Shown here: one piece after another, positions 3,536-32,731 of the stretch | Layout of the letters: each line of letters begins with the position of its first letter | Numbering within the stretch: the first letter of the stretch is position 1 | Translations under genes and position numbers: made by a program | Assembly: GCF_040362765.1 (NCBI RefSeq) | Contig: NZ_BAABWK010000002.1 | Coordinates: forward strand, 868,001 to 932,000 | DNA from: Pyruvatibacter sp. HU-CL02332 | GTDB taxonomy: Bacteria; Pseudomonadota; Alphaproteobacteria; CGMCC-115125 | Reading direction: 5' to 3' | Length of the DNA: 64,000 bases | The notes under the pieces: model-generated | The model's input: the letters and a program-made list of their open reading frames with translations, nothing else | Databases searched by the model: none | What the model was told of the DNA's origin: nothing

Positions 3536-3904
3536 TTACGCAGCGCGGCCCAAAGCTTCGTTGACGTTCGTTTCAACGCGTGTGCGGACTTCCTTGACGC
3601 GCTTTACGAGCGGCTGGCTGGCGTCCTTAACAGCTGTGGTTGCAATGCCACCAACTTTTTCGGCGCTCTGACGGGTGCGCTTGAGAGCAGCTTCAGCGTA
3701 CTTGCGCTGTGCTTCAACAGCAGCCTGGATGTCCTTGGCGTCAACCGTTGCGCGGAATGCCTTGAAGCCGTCAACGACGTTGGCTTCAACAGTGTCGATT
3801 ACTGTGTGAGCAGCAATGCGGATTGGGCTCTTGGCCGCAACCTTCTTGGCAGCGGGACGACGACGGGTTGTTGTCTTCTTTGCAGTCTTCTTGGCAGCAG
3901 CCAT
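3536..3904 (-). CDS. Phasin-like protein with histone-H1-like N-terminus
   Basis: A 122-residue protein. Residues 1-26 are almost only Ala, Lys, Thr, Arg and Pro (AAAKKTAKKTTTRRRP and so on), like bacterial histone-H1-type tails. The rest is a single amphipathic helical region with the phasin pattern DIQAAVEAQRKYAEAA and a C-terminal helix rich in Val, Lys and Arg. Phasins coat polyhydroxyalkanoate granules; a phasin joined to a basic DNA-binding tail recalls Pseudomonas PhaF, which also tethers granules to the nucleoid (there the basic part is C-terminal). ATG 3904 is chosen over the upstream in-frame ATG 3997 because AAGGAG sits just before it. A strong terminator follows. Confidence 0.75.
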   Translation of the reverse strand: MAAAKKTAKKTTTRRRPAAKKVAAKSPIRIAAHTVIDTVEANVVDGFKAFRATVDAKDIQAAVEAQRKYAEAALKRTRQSAEKVGGIATTAVKDASQPLVKRVKEVRTRVETNVNEALGRAA

Positions 3905-16978: not shown

Positions 16979-17890
16979 ATGACGGGGCGAGACTTTTCAG
17001 ACATGGCTTCCAAAAAAAACAAGTCAGACAATGCGTCAGGTGAGAATGGAGCGGGCGCTGACATTCATCACGAAGATCAATTCGCCATCTGGCAGCCAAA
17101 TGGCTTCAAGCTGTCGGAAGTACCTGGCGATGCGTCGGTAGAGAGCCGTGAGTACACAGACATTCTAAAGTCCCTACAGGACGATCTGCGCGAACTACAG
17201 CTGGCCTTTCTCTATAACAAGCTCAAGGGCGTTATTGTTTTTGAAGGCTGGGATGCAGCTGGCAAGGGCGGCATCATCCGGCGCCTGACCAGCGTCATGG
17301 ACCCACGCGCAGTCCGTGTCTGGCCGATTTCGGCACCTGACCAACGCGAACGGGAAGAACATTATCTTCAGCGCTTCTGGCGGCGGCTGCCGCCCAATGG
17401 CGAGTTGGGCATCTTTGACCGCTCCTGGTACGGACGTGTGCTGGTGGAGCGCGTCGAGGACTTTGCTACCCGCGAAGAGTGGGGCCGCGCTTATGGAGAG
17501 ATAAACGCCTTTGAGGCGTCACTGGCCGCTGATGGCTTCCGCCTGGTGAAGATCTTTCTGCAGGTGGACCATGAGGAACAGGCTCAGCGTTTTCGCGACC
17601 GTCTCGATGATCCCCTCAAGAGGTGGAAGCTTACTCCTGAAGATTTGCGCAACAGAAGCCGCCGTGCGGCCTATGAAGAAGCCATTGAAGAAATGGTGCG
17701 GCGGACATCGGCACCGGATGCGCCCTGGCATGTGATCCCCGCCAACGACAAGAAATTTGCGCGGCTCGCTGCGATCTCCACCATCATCCGCACACTAGGG
17801 GCAGGCATTGAGTTCGAACCGCCCGCCCCGAACGAGGATTTTCTCGCCGAAGCTCACAAGGAGCTGGGGATTGAGCCGGATTCCAAATAG
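16979..17890 (+). CDS. ppk2: Polyphosphate kinase 2 family protein
   Basis: A 303-residue PPK2 enzyme, which moves phosphate between polyphosphate and nucleoside (di)phosphates. Walker A is GWDAAGKGGIIRR (about residues 90-102) and Walker B is FDRSWYGRVLVERVE (about 147-161); both are complete. The C-terminal RWKLTPEDL motif is present. Length and single-domain form fit class I PPK2. ATG 16979 is used; ATG 17003 is possible and would remove eight residues. The 20 residues after the start are a low-complexity Lys/Ser/Asn leader. Single-gene unit. Confidence 0.92.
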   Translation: MTGRDFSDMASKKNKSDNASGENGAGADIHHEDQFAIWQPNGFKLSEVPGDASVESREYTDILKSLQDDLRELQLAFLYNKLKGVIVFEGWDAAGKGGIIRRLTSVMDPRAVRVWPISAPDQREREEHYLQRFWRRLPPNGELGIFDRSWYGRVLVERVEDFATREEWGRAYGEINAFEASLAADGFRLVKIFLQVDHEEQAQRFRDRLDDPLKRWKLTPEDLRNRSRRAAYEEAIEEMVRRTSAPDAPWHVIPANDKKFARLAAISTIIRTLGAGIEFEPPAPNEDFLAEAHKELGIEPDSK

Positions 17891-21062: not shown

Positions 21063-21659
21063 ATGATCAGGGGGCAGGCAATGCAGACACGTATTCGGCA
21101 CTACCGGAAACTGCGCGGGCTGACCCTGCAGCAGCTGGCCGACAAGGTGGAAACGACGCCTCAGACCATTTCCCGGCTGGAAACCGGCAATATGACGGTC
21201 TCCATTGACTGGCTGGAGCGATTTGCCGGTGTCTTTGATGTCCAGGTGCGTGATCTGATATCCGGCACCCAGGGCCGCGAAATTGACCTTATGGGTACAT
21301 TGGCCGGCGACGGCGCGGCACTGACAGCAACGGAAGCTGACCTGCCCGGCTTTGCGGTGGATATCCCCGCCGACCGCCCCGTCGCCGTGTGGCTGTCGGG
21401 CAGGGTCGGTCCCTATGAGGCGGGAGATCTGTTGATCGGCAACCGGCTTGAGGGAGCAGACCTTGCCGCTGCCCATGCTCAGGACTGCCTTGTCCCCGGA
21501 GACAACAACACACTGTATCTGCGCCGTGTGGCGCGGGAGGACAGTGGATTGTTCACCCTGATGCCGCTTGATGCGGGGGGCGATGTGCGCTTTGGCGCGG
21601 AGCTCGACTGGGCCGCGCGCATTGTCATGCGCATTCAGTATTTCAGGAAGCCGCGCTAG
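21063..21659 (+). CDS. XRE-family transcriptional regulator with LexA/S24-like C-terminal domain
   Basis: A 198-residue regulator. The N-terminal Cro/CI-type HTH (about residues 8-65) reads RIRHYRKLRGLTLQQLADKV then TTPQTISRLETGNMTVS. The C-terminal half (GRVGPYEAGDLLIG, then DCLVPGDNNTLYLRRV) looks like the beta-rich S24 fold found in CI/LexA-like repressors, with no obvious Ser-Lys catalytic pair. ATG 21063 has GGAGG seven bases upstream; ATG 21081 is possible. It is divergent from the DnaA-like gene and may control it or itself through the palindromes between. Confidence 0.82.
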   Translation: MIRGQAMQTRIRHYRKLRGLTLQQLADKVETTPQTISRLETGNMTVSIDWLERFAGVFDVQVRDLISGTQGREIDLMGTLAGDGAALTATEADLPGFAVDIPADRPVAVWLSGRVGPYEAGDLLIGNRLEGADLAAAHAQDCLVPGDNNTLYLRRVAREDSGLFTLMPLDAGGDVRFGAELDWAARIVMRIQYFRKPR

Positions 21660-23701
21660 TTGGCTTCCATGGTCTCTTCGCGGGACTGATCATCCAGCGC
21701 CTCAGCGATGCAAACACCCGACCAGCGGCCACCATTTGTGACTTGATCCGGCGACAGGCCCCAGCTGCCGCGAAACACTACATCACCCTCAAGCGTCAGG
21801 CGCGCGCCGCCGGAACTGATTTCTGATACCCACACACCGCGCAGCTGAGTGTTCCGTATACGGCCAAACAAAAAGCCGGGCTGTACACCGGGAACCCGGC
21901 CATATGACCCGGTCACCGTCTCATCGTCATGTTGCACAGTCACAAGACGGCCAAACTCTGTCCGCCAGATGCCGGTCCACCCGTTGCAGTGTTGCGGTTC
22001 AGGCTTGGTGACGCGCAGTGGCGTTGCCGCCAGAAGCGCGCCCCCTTCCGCAGCACCGGCATAGACTGCAGCGGTGTAAAGCCCCTCAGGTGGGGCGCGG
22101 AACAGCAGGCGGGATTTGGGATCGTTTGATGTTTCGGCCTGCTCAACGGTGTCAGCAAGCAGATCCACCGATATGGAAATTGCACCATCGGCCTCATCCA
22201 ACGGCACGAGGGCCACATGACCACCGTTGGCGAGGCACCGGTTGTTGCGTATTTCCAGATCAAGCTCTATCGCGCTGCCCTGCTGGTAGGCCGCACGCGT
22301 CAATGAAATGCCAGGCACCGGTTCAGCTGATACACCGGCGTCACTCAGCACCGCAGGGCTGATCGCCACTTCCTCTTCAAGGGTTTTGATCAACTCAAGT
22401 CTTGGCTCCAGCACTGGCTCGCCAACCAATAGGGCTGCCCGCTGTGTGCCCTGATCAATCGCCTCCTGCGCGCTACACCCGCTGCGCACGGAGCAAGTGG
22501 CCGACGCGTTGATTGCCCGGCGCAACTGAAAGAGGGTTCGCGTCAGCTGAGGGTCAACGCCGGGGCAGGATGCGGCAGGGGTCGCACTCACCTTCGCACC
22601 CACACCGGCAGACTTGGTCCGTTCAAGGCGCATGAGAGATTTTATCGCAGTTTCCAGACGGTCCGCTGCACGCTCCCATGCTGCAGGCTGGGACACACGC
22701 TTCTCCAGCCGCAGATTGCCCAGCGCATCACGCATGCCAGCAAGTGCCAGGCGGAGCGAGACGCGTCGCCAGCGAGGTGGACGTCCTTCCCCTGAAACTG
22801 GCTTGATCAGATTTTTTTCAATGTTGGCCAGACTGGTAGCCAGCTCCTGTGTCCGCTTCGGATCAAGACCCGTCGTATCGAAGACCAATGCAAGGCGCGA
22901 CAGGGCTTCAAGGCCGGACATGGTAACTGACCCGGATGCCCTCGTCGGCGTTTGGGTGAGGTCAGACGGCACGGCTGTGACCACGGTTTGAGATGTTTCA
23001 CCAACGGCTGCGCTCAAAATGCCTTCCGCAAATGCAGCACCTTCGAGCAGGGCGTGTCGTGCCTTGCAGTCAGCGCCGGGGCACGCCATGGCCGAACAGG
23101 TAAGTGCTTCGGTCTCCAACGCCCGTGTCGTCGCGCGGATGGGGGACAGGATGCTATCAAGGTCCACTGTCGGGTTGCCACCAATGACCGAGCAGGCTGG
23201 TGATGTTGGCGTGACCACGCGGTGAGCCGCACTGCAGATATTTTCCGTCAGACACGCGGAAGCCGCGCGGGCCGCCGCCTGCGCCAGCAGCTCAACGCCC
23301 ATTGCTATCTGGTTCGAGCGGTCCGCCGCCTCCACCTGTGCCAGTGCGGTTTGCTGGTGCGTCCAGATTGTTGATCCGCTGTCCAGACGTGCCGGGCCCG
23401 GCCACCTCAATGTAGATGGGTCTGTCTGTAAGCGGCTGGCATCCTGTGCCGCCTGTGCCTTGTTTTTGAGTTCTGTTGCCTTGTCTGCCAGATCGCGGGC
23501 GAGCGACCTGCTGATCTCACATACGGGACAAGGCGGGCTGGAGTGAGCTGCATCGCCGTTCTGCGCTGCACCGGCAGCGGGGTGCAGAGTGAGTACCCCG
23601 CTCATACCAACCGCGACCACTAAGAGGTTTCGGCGCAATGGCACGCGAAATGACCGCAAAAAGCGTCTGCTGGACCGAATCAGGGTTGGGATGCGCTGCA
23701 T
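21656..23701 (-). CDS. Large secreted cysteine-rich protein of unknown function
   Basis: A 681-residue protein with an Arg-rich N-terminus and hydrophobic stretch (NLLVVAVGMSGVLTLHPAAGAAQ), a signal peptide or anchor. The mature part has a CPVC motif near residue 58, many paired cysteines (for example CSAMACPGADC and CSVRSGC), long helical regions, a beta-rich domain, and a C-terminal module of about 100 residues with repeated Gly-x-Trp/Gly-x-Tyr strands (GWTGIWRTEFGRLVTV, GSYGRVPG, RGVWVSE, RGSWGLS) resembling a small beta-barrel. I do not recognise the full protein. ATG 23701 gives a sensible signal; an upstream ATG (23776) would overlap the divergent gene's control region. Confidence 0.72.
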   Translation of the reverse strand: MQRIPTLIRSSRRFLRSFRVPLRRNLLVVAVGMSGVLTLHPAAGAAQNGDAAHSSPPCPVCEISRSLARDLADKATELKNKAQAAQDASRLQTDPSTLRWPGPARLDSGSTIWTHQQTALAQVEAADRSNQIAMGVELLAQAAARAASACLTENICSAAHRVVTPTSPACSVIGGNPTVDLDSILSPIRATTRALETEALTCSAMACPGADCKARHALLEGAAFAEGILSAAVGETSQTVVTAVPSDLTQTPTRASGSVTMSGLEALSRLALVFDTTGLDPKRTQELATSLANIEKNLIKPVSGEGRPPRWRRVSLRLALAGMRDALGNLRLEKRVSQPAAWERAADRLETAIKSLMRLERTKSAGVGAKVSATPAASCPGVDPQLTRTLFQLRRAINASATCSVRSGCSAQEAIDQGTQRAALLVGEPVLEPRLELIKTLEEEVAISPAVLSDAGVSAEPVPGISLTRAAYQQGSAIELDLEIRNNRCLANGGHVALVPLDEADGAISISVDLLADTVEQAETSNDPKSRLLFRAPPEGLYTAAVYAGAAEGGALLAATPLRVTKPEPQHCNGWTGIWRTEFGRLVTVQHDDETVTGSYGRVPGVQPGFLFGRIRNTQLRGVWVSEISSGGARLTLEGDVVFRGSWGLSPDQVTNGGRWSGVCIAEALDDQSREETMEAN

Positions 23702-23791
23702 TCTTCTTATATTGCAGAGCAACATAGCCTTTGTGTATGGTTCGCCGACCGATTGCAGCTGACACATTGTCAGCACCAGAAAGGTATTCTC

Positions 23792-24550
23792 ATGGCTACA
23801 GCCCGAAAAAGCGCCCCAAAGTCCAAAGCGCGGACTAAAACAGCTGCCCGCAAAACAGCGGCCAAGAAGCCAACTGCGCGGAAAACCGCGGCAAAAACAG
23901 CTTCCAAGACAGCATCAAAGAAGACAGCAGCGCCCAAGGCTGAAGCCAAGCCTTCAAAGCCACGCGCGATTGCCCAGCCGGTTATTCGCCGAATCTGGCC
24001 GCTGGAGGCGGACGCCCTGCGCCGCCATTTGTGCCGCCTCGACCGCGAAGACCGCACCTTGCGGTTTGGCCGTCCGGTCACAAACCGCTTCATCCAGACC
24101 TATGTGGATCGGATCGACTGGTTCCGCGACATCGTGATTGGTGCGGTTGTGGACGGCGAAGTGACAGCGTCGGGTATTCTCACGCCGATCGGATGGCGTC
24201 TGCCGCTCGAAGGTTCAGCTGCGGTGGCCGTTGAAAGCAACATGCAGGGCTACGGTCTTGGCTCTGAGCTTACAAAGCGGATGCTGACGATTGGCCGTAA
24301 TCGCTTCATGAGCCGGATTTACATGCTGTGCCTCGTCAAGAACGAGCGCATGTACCGGATTGCTGAAAAGTTTGGTGGTGAGGTTGATCGGTTCCGTGAC
24401 GAGACTGTGGAGGCGCAGTTCGACCTGTCACGCCCAACTGTTTCTACGGTGACCACGGAAGCTGTATCCGAAGGTCTTGCCCTGGGACGCACGGTTGTTG
24501 GCAAGGTGCCGGTCATCGGTGCATTGGCAAACGGCACCCACGCGGCGTAA
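23792..24550 (+). CDS. GNAT N-acetyltransferase with histone-H1-like N-terminal tail
   Basis: A 252-residue protein. Residues 1-55 are a Lys/Ala/Thr/Ser-rich tail of AAKK/KTA-type repeats as in bacterial histone-H1-like proteins. Residues about 65-200 form a GNAT acetyltransferase (RRIWPLEADALRRHL, then VAVESNMQGYGLGSELTKRML, whose QGYGLGSEL is the acetyl-CoA pyrophosphate loop Q/R-x-x-G-x-G/A). The last 40 residues are a hydrophobic, Gly-rich tail. The start has AAAGG upstream. The GNAT part resembles those often attached to acetyl-CoA synthetase-like proteins; here the partner is a DNA- or polyanion-binding tail. Substrate unknown. Confidence 0.8.
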   Translation: MATARKSAPKSKARTKTAARKTAAKKPTARKTAAKTASKTASKKTAAPKAEAKPSKPRAIAQPVIRRIWPLEADALRRHLCRLDREDRTLRFGRPVTNRFIQTYVDRIDWFRDIVIGAVVDGEVTASGILTPIGWRLPLEGSAAVAVESNMQGYGLGSELTKRMLTIGRNRFMSRIYMLCLVKNERMYRIAEKFGGEVDRFRDETVEAQFDLSRPTVSTVTTEAVSEGLALGRTVVGKVPVIGALANGTHAA

Positions 24551-24591: not shown

Positions 24592-24918
24592 TCAGGGTTT
24601 GCCCGCAAATCGTTCCGGGCGCAGCACCTGTGCTTCACTGACGGAGACGATGCCGGGATAGCGTTCAAAGAGCTTGCTGATTTTCGTAAGCACTTCGTCA
24701 GCGCCCTTATCGTCGGTGATGGCGATGACCACGATATGATCTTCAGCCCCGGTCAGTTGATCTTCCTGCCAGACACCAGATGTCCCTGCCCCGCCCACTG
24801 TCTTGAGCGCTGTCCAGCCGGTGACACCGACTGTCTCGAAGACGCGCGCGAACACTCTTAGATGGGCCTTGGCGATTGCCAGTTCGATGCGTTTGCACGT
24901 GGTTGTTTCTATAGCCAT
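24592..24918 (-). CDS. sbtB: PII-like protein, SbtB type
   Basis: A 108-residue ferredoxin-like-fold protein of the PII superfamily (KRIELAIAKAHLRVFARVFE, a short T-loop around GAGTSGVWQED, then HIVVIAITDDKGADEVLTKI). It lacks the Tyr51 uridylylation site of GlnB/GlnK. It lies 20 bases downstream of an SbtA-like transporter gene, the arrangement of cyanobacterial SbtA/SbtB, where SbtB binds adenine nucleotides including cAMP and controls bicarbonate uptake. Identity as SbtB rests mainly on this context. Confidence 0.8.
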   Translation of the reverse strand: MAIETTTCKRIELAIAKAHLRVFARVFETVGVTGWTALKTVGGAGTSGVWQEDQLTGAEDHIVVIAITDDKGADEVLTKISKLFERYPGIVSVSEAQVLRPERFAGKP

Positions 24919-24938
24919 TGGGTTGTGCCTTGCATGGG

Positions 24939-25925
24939 TTATCCCGCCAACATCTGCGCGGCAGATATATAGAGCGGGATTCCGATGACGAGATTGAAGG
25001 GAAACGTGATCGCCATGGACAATGTGAGGTAGATGGCGGCATTGGCTTCAGGCAGCGCCATGCGCATGGCGGCAGGAACTGCAATGTAGGAGGCGCTGGC
25101 GCTCAGAACCGTCAGCAGTGCAACACTGCCCACATCAAGCCCAAGCAGCGTACCGGTCAGGACGCCAAGCACAGCAGCAATCAGCGGCATGTAGATGCCA
25201 AAGGCAGCAAGCGGAAGTGTCAGGCCGGTTGATTCACGCAGGCGACGCGCTGCGAGCAGCCCCATGTCCAGAAGGAACAGACACAAAATGCCTTTGAAGG
25301 GCGCGTCCACGAAGGGGCCGATGGCTTCCATGCCCTTGGTGCCGGTGATGATGCCGACGATGAAAGCACCAATGAGCAGCACTACGCTGCCGTTGAGGAA
25401 AACTTCTCGGGCAAGGCTGCTCCAGGGTGTGGCCGTTTCAGGACTGGTGGATGTGACCGCGCCACGCGCCAACAAAAGGCCCGCAATAATGGCGGGGGTT
25501 TCCATCAAGGCCATGACAGCAACCATGTAACCGTCAAAAACGAGCCCCATGGACGTGACAACTTCCGTGGCAGCTACAAATGTGACGACGCTGATGGAGC
25601 CGTAGTGCGCCGCAACGGCGGCCCGGGTTGCGTCATCCAGCCCTGTCGTCATGCGCAACAGCGTGTGGGCGATGACCGGAATGATGAACCCAAGAAGGAT
25701 GCCCGCGATTGCCGTGGCAATGAGGGCAGAACTCAGGCCCGCCTCGGCCACCGACACACCGCCTTTGAACCCGATGGCGAGCATGAGATAGAGCGCAAGG
25801 CCCTTGCCGACTGCTTCGGGCACCGACAACTCAGACCGGGCAAGGGCAGCCAGGAACCCCAGGGCGAAAAACAGCACCATGGGCGAGGCCAGATTGGCGA
25901 GCGCGACGTTGAGTGTGTCAGCCAT
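24939..25925 (-). CDS. sbtA: Sodium-dependent bicarbonate transporter, SbtA family
   Basis: A 328-residue membrane protein with about ten transmembrane segments in two similar halves, as in the SbtA (COG3329) family. Family stretches are SPMVLFFALGFLAALARSEL near the start, AIGFKGGVSVAEAG, and RAAVAAHYGSISVVTF in the middle. SbtA imports bicarbonate with sodium in cyanobacteria (about 370 residues; this one is a little shorter). Followed by the PII-like gene. In a heterotroph it may feed carboxylases or pH control; no carboxysome or RuBisCO gene is in the window. Confidence 0.85.
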   Translation of the reverse strand: MADTLNVALANLASPMVLFFALGFLAALARSELSVPEAVGKGLALYLMLAIGFKGGVSVAEAGLSSALIATAIAGILLGFIIPVIAHTLLRMTTGLDDATRAAVAAHYGSISVVTFVAATEVVTSMGLVFDGYMVAVMALMETPAIIAGLLLARGAVTSTSPETATPWSSLAREVFLNGSVVLLIGAFIVGIITGTKGMEAIGPFVDAPFKGILCLFLLDMGLLAARRLRESTGLTLPLAAFGIYMPLIAAVLGVLTGTLLGLDVGSVALLTVLSASASYIAVPAAMRMALPEANAAIYLTLSMAITFPFNLVIGIPLYISAAQMLAG

Positions 25926-31543: not shown

Positions 31544-32731
31544 CTAGGCAGCGGTGCTTTGCGGACATTGCGGTGGCGCTGCTCGCACCACGCGCGCATT
31601 TGGGACGTGGATTGTGATCTGCGTCCCTTTGCCCAAAGAGCTTGCGATGGACATCATGCCGCCATGCGCCTCGATCATTGCCTTGGCAAGCGGCAATCCA
31701 AGGCCGGTACCGGGTTTGGTTCGACTCATAGCCGTCTCAACCTGCTCGAAGGGTTGCAGGATGCGTTCCAGATGATCCGGCGGAATGCCGATGCCGGTAT
31801 CTGACACAATCACATCAAAACCGTCATCCGTCCGGATGGATCGAACACTTATGGTTCCGCCAACAGGCGTGAACTTGATTGCGTTCGACAGGAGATTGAG
31901 CATCACCTGCACGGCCATTTTCTGATCGGCAAACAGGTGAACGTCTGCATCGGCAAGATCAACCTTCAACTTCAGCCCGGCATCACTGATAGACTGTTTT
32001 AGTATCTGCAAAGCTTCATCCACCGGCTGTGATGCGGGAAACTCTTCCTCACACAGCTCCATCTTTCCCGCTTCGATCTTGGCCATGTCCAGCAGCTCAT
32101 TGATCAAGCCAAGCAGATGATTGGCGCTCCGGTTCACGTCCACCACATACTCGCCATATCGGGCGGGCTGCACCGGGCCAAAAGGTTCACTCATCATGAA
32201 GTCTGTAAAGCCAATGATTGCATTGAGCGGAGTGCGAAGCTCATGACTCATGCTGGCGAGGAATTCGGTCTTTGATCGATTGGCCTGCTCGACACGCTGG
32301 CGTTCAATCTCCAAAGCATCCGACCGACGCTCACTGACATCGAGCATCAGCCTCAGAAGGCTGAGGGCAGTCCCAACACCAAAGTACTGTCCGTCCTCAG
32401 TCACAACAAAACCACCCAGCAGCCCCCCGGCCCGCGCCTTGACGATGCGATTGCCGAGATCCTCAAAGGCCATCCCCCTGTCAACGACAAGCGGATTGCT
32501 ATCCATGAGCTGCGTGATTGGCCGTTTGCCGTAAAGATCAGGTCCAAGCTGATAGGTATAGCGAAGCAGGAAGTCCTGACGGTTGACCAACCCCAAGACC
32601 TCCATTCCATCTACAACCGGAATGCACAGCGCATCCGGTTCGCGCATGAAAATTTCATAGACATCGTGGCAGTTCGTGGTCGGCACAACGGGCAATCGCC
32701 GCTCGAGAAGCTGCTCAAAATAATTACTCAT
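31544..32731 (-). CDS. CBS-domain histidine kinase
   Basis: A 395-residue cytoplasmic kinase. Residues about 10-130 form a CBS-like pair (CIPVVDGMEVLGLVNRQDF, then FVVTEDGQYFGVGTALSLL), of the kind seen ahead of GGDEF/EAL domains. A short coiled coil leads to HisKA (MSHELRTPLNAIIGFTDFMM) and an HATPase with N (LNLLSNAIKFTPVGG), G1 (DTGIGIPPD) and G2 (GTGLGLPLAKAM) boxes. CBS pairs bind adenine nucleotides or sense energy state. ATG 32731 is chosen; ATG 32740 is possible. No regulator is adjacent, so it is an orphan kinase. Confidence 0.9.
   Translation of the reverse strand: MSNYFEQLLERRLPVVPTTNCHDVYEIFMREPDALCIPVVDGMEVLGLVNRQDFLLRYTYQLGPDLYGKRPITQLMDSNPLVVDRGMAFEDLGNRIVKARAGGLLGGFVVTEDGQYFGVGTALSLLRLMLDVSERRSDALEIERQRVEQANRSKTEFLASMSHELRTPLNAIIGFTDFMMSEPFGPVQPARYGEYVVDVNRSANHLLGLINELLDMAKIEAGKMELCEEEFPASQPVDEALQILKQSISDAGLKLKVDLADADVHLFADQKMAVQVMLNLLSNAIKFTPVGGTISVRSIRTDDGFDVIVSDTGIGIPPDHLERILQPFEQVETAMSRTKPGTGLGLPLAKAMIEAHGGMMSIASSLGKGTQITIHVPNARVVRAAPPQCPQSTAA

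Follow-up and report, generated by a model that had tools for sequence, protein, structure and literature searches.

One of the closest described counterparts of the protein reported here is the mycobacterial acetyltransferase Pat (Rv0998, MSMEG_5458; PDB 4ava, 4oll), a type III GNAT that resembles it along almost the whole core, including a C-terminal extension, and that likewise has an extra N-terminal module before a C-terminal GNAT domain. The two differ in that our protein has a polycationic tail instead of the cAMP-binding domain, and Ser142 in the column of Glu235. The GNAT domain of PatZ (also named YfiQ or Pat; type I GNAT; 9it0, 9isq) is directly detectable with our protein (E 3e-6), which, however, is devoid of the acyl-CoA synthetase domain and has Ser142 in the column of E809. 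We take 9it0 to be E. coli PatZ, which fits its 886 residues and the Glu at 809. The Sulfolobus PAT, presumably the protein of structure 3f8k, is a small Pat-type GNAT that was matched by our family profile (E 1.6e-9) and that reportedly acetylates the chromatin protein Alba; unlike our protein, its chain of 160 aa has no such tail and carries Glu in the Ser142 column.

Long Lys/Ala-rich tails attached to another domain are found in AlgP and PhaF of Pseudomonas, as in the tailed GNAT, but those are C-terminal KPAA tails on helical proteins with no enzyme-like domain, whereas the tail of the GNAT is N-terminal. According to the available text of PMC9239181, an H1-like tail fragment of AlgP binds DNA and the PhaF tail is thought to do so. 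Acetylation of a nucleoid protein by a GNAT is described for Eis and HupB of M. tuberculosis, which are, in contrast, two separate proteins (PMC6456759, as far as its available text goes). Bacterial acetyltransferases are sorted into types I–V by their fused domains, and the classes given in the available text of PMC6456759 and PMC8556138 comprise regulators of the cAMP, NADP, amino-acid or acyl-CoA-synthetase kind, or GNAT domains alone or in tandem, with an H1-like tail not among them. A search of literature titles and abstracts found no GNAT with an H1-like tail.

The gene studied here lies in a 64-kb stretch of DNA, called the window below, from a genome (G000; 3.45 Mb, 3 contigs) of a small genus of marine bacteria. 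Its features are collected in Table 1. The host order is represented in the examined set by four genomes, all of one genus, and the tailed GNAT was matched in all four; a relative at 93% identity, from a Candidatus Phaeomarinobacter MAG, is identical in sequence to the genus genome G003. The start codon is preceded by GAAAGG 7 nt upstream, and the motif recurs at this spacing in each of the three remaining genomes of the genus. The longest frame with a start codon opens at TTG 23753, and a mis-called start was ruled out by the conservation of the Shine-Dalgarno-like site and of the ATG in 4/4 genomes. A promoter scan at the gene gave one weak site, compared with a mean of 0.4 (sd 0.6) in shuffled sequences.

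Table 1. Features of the tailed GNAT gene and of its surroundings, in positions of the window.
Feature	Position	Strand	Basis
H1-like-tail + Pat-type GNAT gene	23792..24550	+	ORF call, Pfam, start site; 252 aa
Shine-Dalgarno-like GAAAGG	23779..23784	+	4/4 genus genomes
Basic Lys/Ala/Thr/Ser tail, residues 1-58	23792..23965	+	composition; HC2 models of Pfam and NCBIfam below cut-off
Pat-type GNAT core with C-terminal extension, residues 60-252	23969..24547	+	Pfam Acetyltransf_1; 9it0/9isq E 3e-6; profile-4ava E 4.5e-15
Ser142 (TCA), aligned with the catalytic Glu E809 of PatZ and E235 of mycobacterial Pat	24215..24217	+	pairwise and family alignments
Acetyl-CoA loop Q152-G-Y-G-L-G157	24245..24262	+	sequence, family columns
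P-II-like protein (PF00543), convergent downstream neighbour	24592..24918	-	Pfam; context only
PPK2	16979..17890	+	E 1.3e-83; context only, not linked
Phasin with basic N-terminus	3536..3904	-	Phasin_2 E 1.2e-9; context only

The N-terminal 56–58 residues of the protein are of low complexity and consist of Lys, Arg, Ala, Thr and Ser. Residues 1–56 hold 19 K/R, 17 A, 9 T, 5 S and 1 acidic residue, and the net charge of residues 1–60 is +19, which agrees with the preliminary description of about 55 N-terminal residues as nearly pure, H1-like Lys/Ala/Thr/Ser sequence. We scanned all stop-to-stop frames of at least 60 aa in the six frames of the 64-kb window, and only the tailed GNAT frame reached K+R of at least 14 together with K/R/A/T/S/P of at least 42 in a stretch of 50 residues (42,083 such stretches). 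The tail resembles bacterial histone H1/HC2-like proteins in composition only. Both the Pfam HC2 (H1-like) family PF07382 (17.1 bits, cut-off 40) and the NCBIfam model NF038052 (16.1 bits, cut-off 135) stayed below threshold. When the HC2 family was searched in G000, the tailed GNAT gene was the sole match, below the cut-off, and the same search gave below-cut-off matches in 4 of 14 control genomes; the tail used as a query against its own genome returned nothing beyond itself. The N-terminus has no regulatory domain for a ligand (cAMP, NADP or an amino acid) of the kind that marks the type III GNATs (class I-beta); at E ≤ 1, Pfam gives nothing for this region but the sub-threshold HC2. Among the four genus members the tail, counted up to the PRA boundary, is 56, 56, 48 and 113 aa long; its sequence and length drift, with 30–33% K+R and 0–3 acidic residues in each.

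The rest of the protein is a GNAT domain. Residues 104–195 match Pfam PF00583 at E 7.6e-6 (26.6 bits against a cut-off of 20.7). This match and the acetyl-CoA loop, of the form Q-x-x-G-x-G, place the core in the GNAT superfamily and bear out the fold and loop expected from the preliminary description. In a direct comparison with solved structures, the best matches of the core were 9it0 and 9isq (‘protein acetyltransferase’, 886 and 877 residues), and 3f8k was matched weakly (E 0.049). A family profile (A2) built from the window core and ten tail-less homologues (11 members) had mycobacterial Pat 4ava as its best match, over profile positions 5–178 of 188, then 9it0 (E 5.7e-13), 3f8k and 4nxy, the last of which we take to be Streptomyces PatA. 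The NCBIfam model of mycobacterial Pat matched 10 of the 11 A2 members at E ≤ 0.01, the tailed window protein being the exception. Because of the matches to 9it0/9isq and to 4ava, 3f8k and 4nxy, the core belongs with the protein-lysine-acetyltransferase type of GNAT, and judged by sequence relationship it is nearest to the Pat group. Family columns kept in the tailed proteins include H79, R82, L83, R88, R91, F92, G155, G157, N184 and E223. At columns conserved to at least 80% in 26 homologues, the genus departs by substitution at 68, 98, 125, 168 and 219 and by an inserted residue at 199, and it keeps the others, the catalytic-Glu column apart. An AlphaFold prediction of the tailed protein from two sequences had a mean pLDDT of 36.9, too low to be informative.

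The column of the catalytic Glu is occupied by Ser142, a feature that the preliminary description does not mention, both in the pairwise alignments with 9it0 and 3f8k and in the family alignments; counting along the alignments gives position 809 for the Glu in the ‘DAEFAV’ of 9it0 and 235 for that in the ‘VAEIAF’ of 4ava. Ser is found there in 4/4 tailed proteins of the genus, and Glu in all 60 other-genus homologues that extend over this position and in both tail-less Pat-like paralogues of the genus, so that Ser142 may well mean that catalysis was lost. In the available text of PMC8556138, the proposed catalytic bases are E809 in PatZ and, in M. smegmatis Pat, a residue given both as E234 and as E235; mutants of these Glu residues are lowered in activity, not abolished, and some bacterial GNAT acetyltransferases lack the catalytic Glu. 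Since the mutants are partly active and Glu-less GNATs exist, Ser142 fits catalysis that is slow or takes another route as well as catalysis that is lost. Two residues upstream lies Glu140, which aligns pairwise with D807 of 9it0; Glu is found at that position in 12/61 homologues of other genera. The protein had been called an enzyme, a label that stands as regards the GNAT domain and its acetyl-CoA loop and becomes uncertain because the family's catalytic Glu is replaced by Ser142.

Among the genus members, core dN/dS ranged from 0.012 to 0.096 in 6/6 pairs, ratios that are rough in three of the six, where corrected synonymous divergence exceeds 1. These values indicate that the gene is not decaying, and the possibility of a pseudogene was ruled out on this basis. 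For the tail, the two pairs computed gave 0.05 and 0.07, the second with saturated synonymous sites. Strong purifying selection on the remainder of the core, CoA loop included, combined with the Ser/Glu contrast between the tailed proteins and all others, would fit a pseudo-acetyltransferase that binds acetyl-CoA without transfer and works as an acetyl-CoA-responsive nucleoid or polyanion protein; we consider this somewhat unlikely in view of the residual activity of the Pat and PatZ Glu mutants, of the acetyltransferases that lack the residue altogether, and of the nearby Glu140.

Of 385 genomes of the class, 33 gave a match to the core query at E ≤ 1e-10, a figure that includes the four of the genus; in the set of 289 ‘relatives’, 23 did so at E ≤ 1e-15. 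The 11-member family profile matched 87 of the 385 class genomes (E ≤ 1e-10), many of the weaker matches being frames of PatZ length, and 51 of 398 phylum genomes (E ≤ 1e-20). Tail-less homologues are widespread across the class. A Lys/Ala-rich tail was seen in 0/61 homologues of other genera, with the proviso that the tail score applied needs 6 Lys in 30 residues, which an Arg-only tail would escape. The 61 are made up of 26 homologues (L007–L032), L065, L070–L078 and L081, and a further 24 (L084–L108 without L107). L081 is a fragment that stops short of the catalytic column, hence the count of 60 there; L107 was dropped as the same gene as L072, and L002, L006, L040–L064 and L066–L069 repeat genes already counted. 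The set leaves out, from the class profile matches, G180:C22 and the matches below G232:C87 (mostly frames of ~900 aa; L079 and L080 excepted), together with 23 phylum profile matches.

Two genus genomes encode a second, tail-less Pat-like GNAT that keeps the catalytic Glu (L079 in G001, L080 in G003); these were counted apart from the 61, as paralogues.

Conservation of the tail in orthologues, which the preliminary description had made a point to check, therefore holds within the genus (4/4 genomes) and stops outside it, and as judged from these sequences the tail is a genus-level trait. Because the nearest homologue of another genus is only ~40% identical, the tail may have arisen anywhere along a long branch. 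The fusion of an H1-like tail to a Pat-type GNAT is real, conserved and, in these sequences, restricted to the genus. A phage or mobile origin is unlikely: 29 pattern matches in viral contigs yielded 0 confirmed cases in a search restricted to close relatives, and the neighbours are kept in G001 and G002.

The tailed GNAT gene stands alone, with a divergent gene upstream and convergent genes downstream. The first of the latter, the P-II-like gene, is followed by a gene of the Na+-dependent bicarbonate transporter family (PF05982), also convergent. This adjoining pair (24592-25925), found here in an alphaproteobacterium, is presumably SbtA/SbtB-like. No Pfam family matches the divergent upstream gene (21656-23703) at E ≤ 0.001, and its evolution is faster than that of the adjacent genes: identity is 68% in G001 and, along part of the gene, 29% in G003, and the G002 stretch holds no match.

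Both the PPK2 gene and the basic-tailed phasin that had been pointed out in the window are real. The proximity of PPK2, which had been offered as a functional hint, gained no evidence: it lies 6 kb and several genes from the tailed GNAT, and an operon with it was ruled out by the oppositely transcribed genes in between. The gene order from PPK2 to an MFS transporter is kept in the 20-kb stretches of G001 and G002 save for two genes: the G002 stretch has no match to the upstream gene, and what corresponds in G001 to the kinase at 31544 is another kinase, 45% identical to it; for G003, the comparison covers a 3-kb contig, on which the P-II-like gene is accompanied by a partial transporter gene and an upstream gene that has diverged. 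Since both genus genomes compared are syntenic here, the nearness of PPK2 reflects plain synteny. A joint targeting of the GNAT protein, by its tail, and of the phasin to polyphosphate granules is in our view very unlikely. The genome does encode PPK2, and in the available text of PMC9239181 AlgP, itself a protein with an H1-like tail, localises to polyphosphate granules in P. aeruginosa; in the AlgP screen reported there, however, the authors' criteria did not class PhaF, a phasin with an H1-like tail, as enriched in the polyP pellet, abundant though it was, and the syntenic position of PPK2 and the DNA or ribosome association of several other proteins with Lys/Ala-rich segments in this genome also argue against it.

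Those proteins were found with the pattern A-A-K-K-x-A, which gave 24 matches in the genome (16 forward, 8 reverse; 5 and 0 for the reversed-pattern control). Nineteen of them lie in nine proteins with Lys/Ala-rich segments, namely two WS/DGAT wax-ester synthases, an H1-like protein, a MarR regulator, an ABC-type ATPase (Pfam label ABC_tran) that reads like UvrA, trigger factor, IF-2, aconitase and the phasin; the other five (L121, L122, L126, L130, L133) showed no such segment. The segments are C-terminal tails in MarR, the two WS/DGAT, the UvrA-like ATPase and trigger factor (L123, L128, L131, L132, L034), an internal linker in IF-2, and N-terminal in aconitase, whose start codon is uncertain. 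The list is incomplete, since the pattern misses the tailed GNAT itself. The stand-alone H1-like protein (~154 aa; L114 1477-1959, G000:C1 about 279,700-280,200) consists of near-pure AAKKK repeats and has no Pfam match at E ≤ 1e-4.

Taken from their sequences, these proteins suggest that the lineage may have a habit of adding H1-like tails. That the habit produces lysine-rich disorder with no specific target, on a core that would be a small-molecule or peptide GNAT, seems quite unlikely to us. Segments on unrelated proteins such as the wax-ester synthases and aconitase, and the quick drift of tail length and sequence, are what it would predict; the basic composition kept in 4/4 tails, their low dN/dS and the fact that among solved structures the core matches protein acetyltransferases best are not. 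The proposal that basic tails direct proteins to a common polyanion receives indirect support from the nine other proteins, some of them DNA- or ribosome-associated, and none from the proximity of PPK2. Because such carriers are prominent but not alone, nucleic acid is favoured as the polyanion, though polyphosphate could still serve.

Our main reading, to which we give a probability of roughly 0.4, is that a single gene encodes a Pat-type GNAT with altered or lost catalysis that is anchored to a polyanion, most likely a nucleic acid, and may acetylate nearby lysines. The H1-like, presumably disordered tail would likely anchor the GNAT domain to the polyanion, chromosomal DNA or RNA being the best candidates. 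Given that the family's catalytic Glu is Ser142, acetyl transfer would probably be slow or follow another route, which could involve Glu140, a lower substrate pKa in the basic environment, or Ser142 itself. The most likely work of the protein would be acetyl-CoA-dependent acetylation of lysines near the anchor, those of nucleoid proteins and, in cis, of the tail; an acetylated tail would lose its charge, setting the protein free, and the genome's sirtuin (one SIR2-family gene is present) could reverse this. Several observations point to this reading: the tail is kept in 4/4 genomes with its basic composition despite lengths of 48–113 aa, the core dN/dS is low, the profile matches are to Pat, the family columns are conserved and the Glu mutants of known enzymes are partly active. 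The Lys/Ala-rich segments on the H1-like protein, MarR, the UvrA-like ATPase, trigger factor and IF-2, the DNA binding of the AlgP tail fragment (in the available text of PMC9239181) and the SIR2-family gene are consistent with it, while the Glu kept in all 60 homologues of other genera and in both paralogues, and the same kind of segment on the two wax-ester synthases and the phasin, which have no recognised nucleic-acid role, argue against it.

A further possibility, rather unlikely in our estimate, is that the genus turned a Pat domain into an acetyl-CoA-sensing, DNA-anchored pseudoenzyme, which gained the tail, lost the Glu and performs no transfer. If this were true, the level of acetyl-CoA would be coupled directly to binding of the nucleoid or another polyanion. 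More generally, a GNAT fused to an H1-like tail would physically link acetyl-CoA and the bacterial nucleoid. The association of the tail with the loss of Glu counts as n = 1, since both are known from a single clade, and their co-occurrence there would make this clade a test case either for GNAT domains as acetyl-CoA sensors or for Pat-type catalysis without the Glu.
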